Below are positions 1,328-4,697 of a stretch of DNA of 39,832 nt, one piece after another; position 1 is the first letter of the stretch; every line of letters starts with the position of its first letter. The DNA is from Nitrosospira sp. (GTDB lineage Bacteria > Pseudomonadota > Gammaproteobacteria > Burkholderiales > Nitrosomonadaceae), in contig JACCWK010000196.1 in the NCBI GenBank assembly GCA_013697655.1, positions 1 through 39,832 of the forward strand. The letters run 5' to 3'. The translations under genes were made by a program, and so were the position numbers. The notes beneath the pieces were generated by a model, which made no database searches, was not told the origin of the DNA, and worked only from the letters and a program-made list of their open reading frames with translations.

Positions 1328-2337
1328 CTAAAGATCGGGGATGAGCACCGCCGCGCCGGTCAGTTTTCCTTCCCGCAGCCTTGTCAAAGCGGTATTGGCC
1401 TCGCTTAGCGGCAGGGACTCCGTCGTAACCCTGATTGGTATTTTCGGCGCCAATGCCAGAAATTCCTCAGCATCCCGGCGGGTGAGATTGGCCACCGAGA
1501 CCAGGCGTTTTTCGCGCCATAAAATGTCGTAGGAAAAAGCAGGAATGTCGCTCATGTGAATGCCGCCACAGATTACGATTCCACCAGGACGGATGGTGCG
1601 TAGCGCGGCAGGCACCAAAGCGCCTATCGGCGCAAAGATAATGGCAGCGTCGAGTTCTTCAGGTGGTATCGCATCTGATCCCCCTACCCACATCGCCCCA
1701 TTCTGCCGGCGAGATCCTGTGCCGCTGTATCGCCGGCACGCGTAAACGCAAATAATTTTTTCCCCTGATAGCGCAGAATCTGGGCCAAGATATGAGCTGC
1801 GGCGCCGAAACCGTAAATACCAACCCGATCGGCGTCCCCGGCCATTTTAAGTGCCCGATAACCAATGAGTCCGGCGCATAACAAAGGTGCCGCCTCGACG
1901 TCACTATAATTGCCGGGAATGCGGAAACAATAGCGCGCGTCAGCAACAGTATATTCGGCATAGCCGCCATCGATTTGATAACCGGTAAATTTGGCGTTTG
2001 CACATAAATTTTCATGGCCGCTACGGCAGTAGCCGCATTGACCACAGGTCCAGCCCAGCCAGGGAATACCAATCCGCTCCCCAATTGAAAAATCGCGGAC
2101 ATTTGCTCCGCAAGATACCACGCGGCCCACAATTTCATGGCCAGGAATAATGGGCAGCTTTGGTTTGGGCAATTCGCCGTCAACAACGTGTAAGTCCGTG
2201 CGGCATACGGCGCAGGCTGCGATCTTGACCAATAACTGATTCGGGCCCGGCTGTGGACGAGGTAAGCAGCGCATATTTAGCGCTTGTCCCGGCTTATCCA
2301 GCACCATCGCGTGCATGGAATTATTTAATTGGGACAT
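1328..2337 (-). pseudogene. Zinc-dependent alcohol dehydrogenase, interrupted by one frameshift near 1684-1695
   Basis: 1684-2337 encodes the N-terminal GroES-like/Zn-binding part (GHEIVGRV, CGQCGYCRSGHENLC). 1328-1693 in another frame continues with MWVGGSDAIPPEELDAAIIFAPIGALVPAAL...GGIHMSDIPAF. One added G in the G4 tract (GGGG to GGGGG) would fuse them. Confidence 0.85.
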
Positions 2338-2570
2338 GGCACCACCGATGGTCTACGGGAGGCAATCGAGAAGATGATTATCTGGAATCCTGAACACGCA
2401 TAATTCAACACGCATAATTCTTGCGTACAGTCAATGATATGTTCAGCAGTCACGAAAAAGTCAAACGCTGCGTATTGGTCTTGAGGGGACATTTTCATCC
2501 GCTCGAAGTCGTGCCTCAGCTTGCGCAGTAGGTCCGCCGGTAGTCTTAATTCACCGAATCCTTGATGCAT
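2325..2570 (-). CDS. Small hypothetical protein, apparently C-terminally truncated; companion ORF downstream of the reverse transcriptase
   Basis: ATG at 2570 with upstream AAGGA, 38 bp after the RT stop on the same strand (ORF track starts at an alternative TTG, 2576). N-terminal half is protein-like (LPADLLRKLRHDFERMKMSPQDQYAAFDFFVTAEHIID); the sequence becomes low-quality after that. Confidence 0.5.
   Translation of the reverse strand: MHQGFGELRLPADLLRKLRHDFERMKMSPQDQYAAFDFFVTAEHIIDCTQELCVLNYACSGFQIIIFSIASRRPSVVPCPN
2393..2420. repeat. Perfect 14-bp tandem duplication AACACGCATAATTC x2
   Basis: Read directly: AACACGCATAATTC AACACGCATAATTC, adjacent to where the small companion ORF loses protein-like character. 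Confidence 0.95.
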
Positions 2571-2608
2571 GCCCAATCCTTTTCTCTTGTCTGCCTGGCA
2601 CTTTGCTA

Positions 2609-4357
2609 CTAATCGACGGGGAAATGGAGGCCCCTAAGAAACGCATCGACATCCTCAAGCGAGTTTTCGCCTCCTTCAGTGCCATGATCAGGGTCATCGT
2701 CGGCGGACTCATCCGAATCGGAGACCTTATCGAAATACTCGTCATCCATTTCGTCGAATTCAAATTTGTCTTTTATCAACTCGTCAGTATCAAAGTCAAA
2801 CTCTTCGCTTACTTTCAAAGCCACCTTGAAGTCAAATATAGGATGGCTCTGTTTGCTGTCATCATAAAGGGCGACTCCTCCTGCTTTTAAAGGCCCGAAG
2901 AACTTATGATTATCGATAAAGGAAGTATTACCAACACCAAGCCAGTCGCGGCGCCCTGCTTCATACGCAAGCAGCCATTTTGAATCGGAAAGCGCGCTTT
3001 CCTGAGCATAAGCAGTAAGGGCTGCAGCATTGGCCATCTCGGTCACTAATCTATGCTTAAGCAAGTCTAGAAGAATCAATGTACAGACAGAGCTTCCCAT
3101 TCGCTCGACCTCATGCGCAGCATCAGAATCCAACTCAATTTGTAATTCCTTGCAGGCCCACAAGAGCCAAGCCACTTCTCCATGGTGATTACTAGCGGCA
3201 GCGGATGTGATAATATTGTTACAGAAACGCCTAATGGCGTCCTTGTTCAGTTCATAATGATGGTAATGGTAAGTGAAAAGAATGTGGGTAATAACCTGAA
3301 TAGTATTGGGAAAGCCGTAACCACACTTCAATAAATAGGCCTCAAAGACAGGCCAATTGGATTTCTTGATAATGATCGACGAGATCTGTCTTAGTCCATA
3401 TTTGATCAAACTTTCGTCCCTATACTTTTTCTCTAAAGAAAACAATACTTCGAAATAGTGATGGATGTCGTCGCCCTGAGCTTTACGACGGGGTGAAATT
3501 TGCAGCCTCTTTACGGCGTATTTCCATGACTCCTCAATCATATCACTGACCTTGGTGATTCTTGTTTTAGCTGCGTTAATTTGTAACTCGAAGCTATTAA
3601 CTGCCTTAATTACTGCTGCAAGCCCGCGCTCGGCCTCCTCTCTGGTGTTGAAGAACAAAAAGAAATCATCCACATAACGGAAGCCTGCGGGCCAAGCTCC
3701 TAGCTCCTTATATAATTGAAGATCTACTGCGATTCCAATGATTTCGGCAAGGATATGAGAAGTATCGGGACCGATTGGAAGACCGATGGTTTGCCCATCC
3801 TGCACCGCCATAGATCGCCTATCGAGATCATTGCCGTAAATACCCCTCGCGCCAGGTCTCCGGTTGCTCTTGGCTACAGTCTTTCCATGGAGTGCCCAAG
3901 GAATTGTATGGGTATATAACGTCGGGAAATAGTTGGTGACGTCAGTTATAACAGCATATTGATATCCGGCTCCTGCAAGTACCTTTTCTTCATACAATTC
4001 GCTGAACTTCGTTAGGTTTATTGCGCGAAGGGAATCCTCAAATTTGGGTATGCTGCGGGATAGAGGGCTTTTACAGTAGTGAGATTCTATTAGCGACCAA
4101 TGCTTTGCAATGTCTCTCGATAGAAAATAGTAACCAACCGGATTGACAATGGAGATGTTGCGCCTGCAGTACGACGACCGAGGGACCGAAAACTTTTCGG
4201 GCAAACAGGCATAAGGCTTTTTTCCCTTGTCCAACGCTTCCCACTTTTCTTTAAAGTCGGACAACGCTGACGCAAATGTCGTCGAGGTAAAGCCTGGAGG
4301 TAGCTGGATCGGAAGCATGCCTTTCTCCAAGAGCTTCGTCAGCACCTCATCTTCCAT
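2609..4357 (-). CDS. Stand-alone reverse transcriptase (UG/Abi, defence-associated type candidate)
   Basis: 582 aa. RT motif A VITDVTNYFPTLYTHTIPWALHGK; motif B-like GQTIGLPIGPDTSHILAEIIG; catalytic box FRYVDDFFLFF; then about 330 aa without a recognised maturase, X/Zn or endonuclease domain and a D/E-rich tail. RBS GAGGAGGG before the ATG. Confidence 0.93.
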   Translation of the reverse strand: MEDEVLTKLLEKGMLPIQLPPGFTSTTFASALSDFKEKWEALDKGKKPYACLPEKFSVPRSSYCRRNISIVNPVGYYFLSRDIAKHWSLIESHYCKSPLSRSIPKFEDSLRAINLTKFSELYEEKVLAGAGYQYAVITDVTNYFPTLYTHTIPWALHGKTVAKSNRRPGARGIYGNDLDRRSMAVQDGQTIGLPIGPDTSHILAEIIGIAVDLQLYKELGAWPAGFRYVDDFFLFFNTREEAERGLAAVIKAVNSFELQINAAKTRITKVSDMIEESWKYAVKRLQISPRRKAQGDDIHHYFEVLFSLEKKYRDESLIKYGLRQISSIIIKKSNWPVFEAYLLKCGYGFPNTIQVITHILFTYHYHHYELNKDAIRRFCNNIITSAAASNHHGEVAWLLWACKELQIELDSDAAHEVERMGSSVCTLILLDLLKHRLVTEMANAAALTAYAQESALSDSKWLLAYEAGRRDWLGVGNTSFIDNHKFFGPLKAGGVALYDDSKQSHPIFDFKVALKVSEEFDFDTDELIKDKFEFDEMDDEYFDKVSDSDESADDDPDHGTEGGENSLEDVDAFLRGLHFPVD

Positions 4358-4697
4358 TTACCCTCCTCATACTGATGAGTGCATTGCTTTGGTTATCGAT
4401 CATAGCCGTGTGGCTTGTACGCCCAGTGAGGACCATAGACACAAGCGTTTTTTTTCATGCTAGTTGGTTAGAGCAGCTTAAAACCCTTGACCAGTCTTTG
4501 TTTTTCACAGTCAGGTTAGCGTCTAACTTGCCATTAACTTGGGATTTTACAACTGATGGGAGAAGAACACTTCAGCTTCTCTTCGAGCTTAAAGGGGAGT
4601 CTACGACCTTGCGCCGTTTGAAGATGTAGGTGAAAATGTATGTAGTATTTTAAACTACACTATAAATTCTTACCTATCAGTAACTTGGCTTTAAATC

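Follow-up and report, generated by a model that had tools for sequence, protein, structure and literature searches.

The window, defined as the entire stretch of 39,832 nucleotides analyzed from a Nitrosospira sp. contig, contains a single intact reverse transcriptase (RT) gene as the main content of an inserted segment next to a tRNA-Ser gene (Table 1). The gene order is lysC, followed by the tRNA-Ser on the reverse strand and then by the RT gene. The RT gene consists of 582 codons without a stop, and a search of its own genome returned one match and no second copy. Scans for promoters and terminators gave no higher yield than in shuffled sequence.

Table 1. Positions of the features at the RT locus, numbered from the first nucleotide of the window.
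Feature	Position	Strand	Basis
DRT6 (UG12) reverse transcriptase gene, 582 aa	2609..4357	-	ORF, profiles, PDB search, tree, fold
Shine-Dalgarno-like AGGAGGG, 3 nt ahead of the ATG	4361..4367	-	sequence read directly
TDVTNYF motif with first catalytic Asp, residues 138-144 (D139 invariant)	3926..3946	-	motif positions, alignment
GLPIGP motif, residues 192-197	3767..3784	-	motif positions, alignment
YVDD catalytic motif, residues 228-231 (D230 and D231 invariant)	3665..3676	-	motif positions, alignment
Helical alpha-repeat domain, ~residues 280-495, like solved DRT6/DRT4	2873..3520	-	predicted model, Foldseek
Acidic C-terminal tail, residues 505-582, end with low confidence in the model	2612..2845	-	sequence, AlphaFold2
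Conserved tail motif FEFDEMDDEYFD, residues 532-543	2729..2764	-	alignment
Tyr541 codon, candidate priming tyrosine	2735-2737	-	alignment
ORF of 83 aa behind the RT gene	2328..2576	-	ORF list, same-genome comparison
Inserted segment of ~2.36 kb with the RT gene as main content	2338..4697		comparison with same-genus genomes
tRNA-Ser (gct), 3' end abutting the inserted segment	4698..4790	-	tRNA scan, genome comparison

Analysis of the encoded protein identified RVT_1 in Pfam (E=1.7e-7) and the PADLOC models of defense-associated RTs (DRTs) with E-values down to 2e-206, far beyond chance. The complete RT motifs described in an earlier note, made from the sequence alone, were recovered at the three sites listed in Table 1, and the alignment of homologues showed that the catalytic and family-invariant residues, D139, D230 and D231 among them, are all kept. 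The same note had pointed to a helical-looking region after the palm, which agrees with the AlphaFold2 model, where helices span residues 291–492, mostly with a pLDDT of at least 90. The model was built on an alignment of 12 sequences and has a mean pLDDT of 81.9 and a pTM of 0.83; the alpha-repeat half is mostly at 90 or above and residues 538–582 are below 50. The predicted structure displays the class 1 alpha-repeat fold, and its helical domain stands where a thumb would be. The Pfam matches included neither a maturase X nor an HNH domain. The search of the whole window against Rfam returned three tRNAs but no RNA of a group II intron, a retron or any other family, and a scan at permissive thresholds around the RT gene returned the tRNA and sub-threshold matches only. 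These results bear out the description of a gene free of maturase, HNH, intron or retron context.

The protein was assigned to a subgroup by means of profiles, a phylogenetic tree and structural comparison. In the Mestre classification, DRT6 corresponds to UG12 and DRT4 to UG15, the latter in agreement with PDB entries that carry the name UG15. The highest PADLOC score was obtained for PDLC02179, named Drt4 (685 bits), followed by PDLC03748, named Drt6 (582 bits, residues 5–526), PDLC02177, named Drt4 (477 bits), and the Drt4 models PDLC03752, 02178 and 02180 (205–260 bits). Taken by the name of its best model, the protein would be a DRT4 (UG15) RT. This conflict of names was settled by scoring two solved proteins, the DRT6 chain (9wy8) and a UG15/DRT4 chain, against the same library. 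The solved DRT6 chain ranked the models in the same order as our protein, with PDLC02179 first and Drt6 second, whereas the true UG15/DRT4 chain ranked PDLC02180 and PDLC03752 first. The name of the best model was thus discarded as a guide. The score against the NCBIfam Drt4 equivalog was 235.6 bits, under the cutoff of 450, and a phmmer search of the PDB gave 684 bits for 9wy8 versus 109 bits for UG15. With both tree and fold setting DRT6 and DRT4 apart, as described below, we consider a DRT4 identity very unlikely. The Drt4 name on PDLC02179 seems to reflect lumping within the model library. PDLC02179 and PDLC02177, both named Drt4, scored proteins of the DRT6 clade best or near best, and PADLOC output may therefore call a DRT6 system DRT4.

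In the maximum likelihood tree, the protein was placed with 9wy8 in a clade with 99/99 support, which also holds proteins from Pseudomonas, Paraburkholderia/Caballeronia and viral contigs. The UG15/DRT4 reference was placed elsewhere (100/98), grouping with two other homologues (L010 and L088). Long branches outside the clade of our protein and 9wy8 make the deeper joins unsure. Foldseek aligned the model to 9wy8 ("Cryo-EM structure of the hexameric DRT6", 495 residues as compared) with an E-value of 6e-49, an rmsd of 1.7 A, a TMt of 0.96 and 57% identity over 497 columns. The corresponding rmsd values were 4.2–4.7 A for UG15/DRT4, 5.5–5.9 A for AbiK and 6.3–9.5 A for Abi-P2. An origin as a group II intron, retron or diversity-generating retroelement (DGR) RT, with which the protein has palm motifs and weak profile matches in common, is refuted at the levels of profiles, RNA and fold. 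The scores were far under the profile cutoffs (34.8 bits against 300 for group_II_RT_mat and 22.5 bits against 235 for retron St85), no partner RNA or maturase domain was found, and the likeness to group II and DGR RT structures was limited to the palm and fingers (TMq ~0.33). The earlier note had named placement in a group II or retron clade and nearby intron RNA domains as findings that would speak against its reading of a UG/Abi/DRT member or relative; neither was found. That reading is upheld by the profiles, the tree, the comparison with solved structures and the gene neighborhoods, and the PADLOC models, RT tree and structure prediction that the note had called for fix the subgroup as DRT6/UG12.

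Comparison with the known systems shows that the protein is a further member of the known DRT6 type and not a new system. It shares with 9wy8 the clade, the domain layout and an acidic tail with (D/E)EYFD, but differs in genomic site and lineage and in the length and sequence of the tail after the motif. DRT4/UG15 (9vdo, 9l9s) is likewise a single-gene class 1 DRT and shares its overall fold, but has an identity of only ~22% and falls into a separate clade. AbiK and Abi-P2, which are known for template-independent, protein-primed synthesis (PMC9508834), also combine an RT-like part with a helical domain, but the identity is 15–18% and Tyr44 of AbiK has no conserved counterpart in our protein. 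DRT3b/UG8 is a class 1 RT with a conserved tyrosine in its C-terminal tail, as in our protein, and the role of that residue as primer has been shown for DRT3b (PMC13174585). Unlike our protein, DRT3b acts in concert with DRT3a and an ncRNA, and it is distant in sequence.

Comparison with other genomes of the genus confirmed that the RT gene resides in an insertion. The stretch from lysC to the tRNA-Ser was present in 22 of the 22 other same-genus genomes searched, and in those inspected the sequence diverged straight after the CCA of the tRNA. An empty site was identified in one genome (G096), which lacks positions 2338–4694 and has 108–112 bp instead, with the same alcohol dehydrogenase gene next to it. 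The interval behind the tRNA-Ser ranged from 0.6 to 17 kb in the other genomes. By visual inspection of loci L062–L079, the site holds a galactose-type operon in many same-genus genomes, and transposase- or integrase-like, primase-like and SIR2-like ORFs elsewhere. The site behind the tRNA-Ser is an integration hotspot within the genus, and the differing content and variable interval identify the RT gene as cargo at this site. The earlier description of a housekeeping background was broadly right, but it overlooked that the gene itself belongs to a short segment inserted at a variable tRNA-Ser site.

No integrase was found in or around the 2.36-kb insert, and a search for att-type direct repeats bounding it returned no convincing pair but only short, chance-like repeats. 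A tandem duplication of 14 bp is present at positions 2393–2420, inside the 83-aa ORF. As a possible shared element end, we considered the initial 75 nt of the inserted segment, which match the sequence just behind the tRNA in another genome (G106) over 25 bp at 92%; this was too little, and the candidate was rejected. The GC content was 0.454 in the insert, 0.476 in lysC and 0.497 in the window, which is not decisive as a sign of transfer. Over its first 50 residues, the 83-aa ORF shares 72% identity with a portion of a longer frame on another contig of this genome (C253); the other family genomes searched contained no match. This ORF is probably a cargo remnant. The alcohol dehydrogenase-like gene beside the insert (1328–2337, reverse strand) is divided into two ORFs in different frames (1684–2337 and 1328–1693), while its relatives have both parts in a single frame; the split may reflect a frameshift, or else an assembly error in the vicinity of a CCCCC run (~1680–1685).

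The small size of the insert, without an integrase or intact neighbors and with a truncated-looking ORF adjoining the RT gene, could also suggest that the RT gene is a degraded, non-functional relic in the remnant of an old island. We regard this as improbable, given the stop-free reading frame, the Shine-Dalgarno-like sequence and the retention of the catalytic and family-invariant residues. Solitary genes are moreover usual for DRT4 and DRT6.

Homologues of the RT are few and scattered. A close homologue was identified in one other genome among 125 family genomes (G081, 52%), and the sampled order, class and phylum sets contained 2, 1 and 0 matches, respectively, with the own genome excluded. 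Close homologues with 54–61% identity are present in Caballeronia, Paraburkholderia and Pseudomonas, and DRT6 relatives were also found on viral contigs. This distribution is rare and patchy, and the RT gene is sporadically acquired. The homologues are associated with defense systems, a link whose absence the earlier note would have counted against its reading. At one locus (L008), a pPIWI-RE system is located ~270 bp from the RT frame together with an LmuB homologue, and the neighbors at other loci include Shedu (L006), SIR2-HerA (L004), SIR2-like SIR2_2 (L023) and GmrSD (L057). Since the neighbors vary from locus to locus, no partner gene is implied. RTs of the Drt3b type were also observed in genomes of the same genus and family (L014, positions 910–2982, and L015); the former scored 662 bits with PADLOC Drt3b and the latter grouped with it in the tree.

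The region of ~340 nt upstream of the RT gene contains no convincing gene, which would leave room for the RT to be an RNA-templated, class 2-type DRT that depends on a flanking ncRNA. However, within 400 nt upstream or downstream of the RT gene at 11 loci, conservation was observed only between close sister pairs. An upstream ncRNA was considered as a candidate and dropped, since the upstream sequence lacks conservation. With no Rfam match and a fold of the class 1 alpha-repeat type, dependence on such an RNA appears to us highly improbable. The unconserved flanks at the 11 loci, the differing neighbors and the lack of an RNA family are as expected for the single-gene organization of DRT6. Taken together, we conclude that the RT is very probably an anti-phage system of the DRT6 type (UG12, class 1 UG/Abi) with a single component, which was horizontally acquired at a variable tRNA-Ser site.

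The related systems provide a framework for its mechanism. AbiK synthesizes template-independent DNA that is attached to Tyr44 in an N-terminal loop (PMC9508834), and DRT3b synthesizes template-independent DNA from Tyr666 (Y666) in the C-terminal tail (PMC13174585). According to reviews (PMC13314766, PMC13213688), DRT4 produces random ssDNA started from a conserved tyrosine, and the phage DNA-binding protein ORF55 protects the 3' end of the ssDNA with DRT4, so that toxic ssDNA accumulates. ORF55 has been reported as an activator of DRT6 too (PMC13314766, PMC13213688), and one of these two papers calls the product chemistry of DRT6 less resolved. The start of DNA synthesis is described in secondary literature as less resolved for DRT6 than for DRT4. 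By analogy, the mechanism of the Nitrosospira RT is most likely protein-primed, template-independent ssDNA synthesis as an abortive defense. The protein would assemble as a hexamer, as is known for 9wy8. As in DRT4, AbiK, Abi-P2 and DRT3b, a tyrosine hydroxyl would serve as the primer and no nucleic acid template would be needed to polymerize the ssDNA. Infection by a phage, for example through an ORF55-type protein, would cause the ssDNA to accumulate and the growth of the infected cell to be halted. The priming residue may be Tyr541 on the acidic tail, in a position analogous to Y666 of DRT3b.

The C-terminal tail was examined in the alignment of relatives. Residues 506–582 include 28 Asp/Glu versus 6 Lys/Arg, and the otherwise variable tail contains a conserved EMD(D/E)EYFD motif, present as EMDDEYFD in our protein. 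Among 11 members of the clade, pairwise identity averaged 0.80 for residues 535–543, as compared to 0.32 for the linker (residues 500–519), 0.09 after residue 543, and 0.63 and 0.56 for the two folded domains. Of the 19 relatives, 17 retain Tyr541, some of them at ~40% identity; the two exceptions are both divergent and have Phe (L025) and Leu (L086), and the alignment of the tail is uncertain in the most divergent rows of this set. Two DRT6 relatives of ~40% identity on viral contigs (L083 and L084) were observed to have very long, Asp/Glu-rich C-terminal tails with the motif as a D/G-Y-G variant. Among the other tyrosines in the 19 relatives, Tyr148, Tyr363 and Tyr465 are invariant and Tyr498 is kept in 18, and the N-terminal Tyr49 and Tyr63 are kept in 4 and 13, respectively.

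We propose Tyr541 as a candidate primer because it is a conserved tyrosine in a flexible tail, with a precedent in DRT3b, and put its chance at somewhat less than even since Tyr465 and Tyr498 could also serve. More tentatively, it is possible that DRT6 in general primes from the tyrosine of EMD(D/E)EYFD on a mobile acidic tail, a principle that would be shared with DRT3b and not with AbiK, and that, until infection, the tail also keeps the DNA cleft occupied or closed. Alternatively, our protein, while being a DRT6, may prime from another tyrosine (for example Tyr465 in WLLAYE, Tyr498 or Tyr63), with the acidic tail mimicking DNA and closing the empty cleft. This alternative, to which we give an even chance, agrees with the high conservation of Tyr465 and Tyr498 and with the strongly acidic tail. 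However, both residues are within or beside folded elements in the predicted structure, DRT3b primes from its tail, and in the tail motif of our protein the conservation surrounds its own tyrosine. A tyrosine in an N-terminal loop, like Tyr44 of AbiK, also has no conserved counterpart at Tyr49 or Tyr63. Regarding Tyr541, the family alignment singles out one residue that bears on how DRT6 starts DNA synthesis. The RT is a compact and divergent addition to DRT6, and its locus shows how a gene of this type travels, namely alone and into a tRNA-Ser site.
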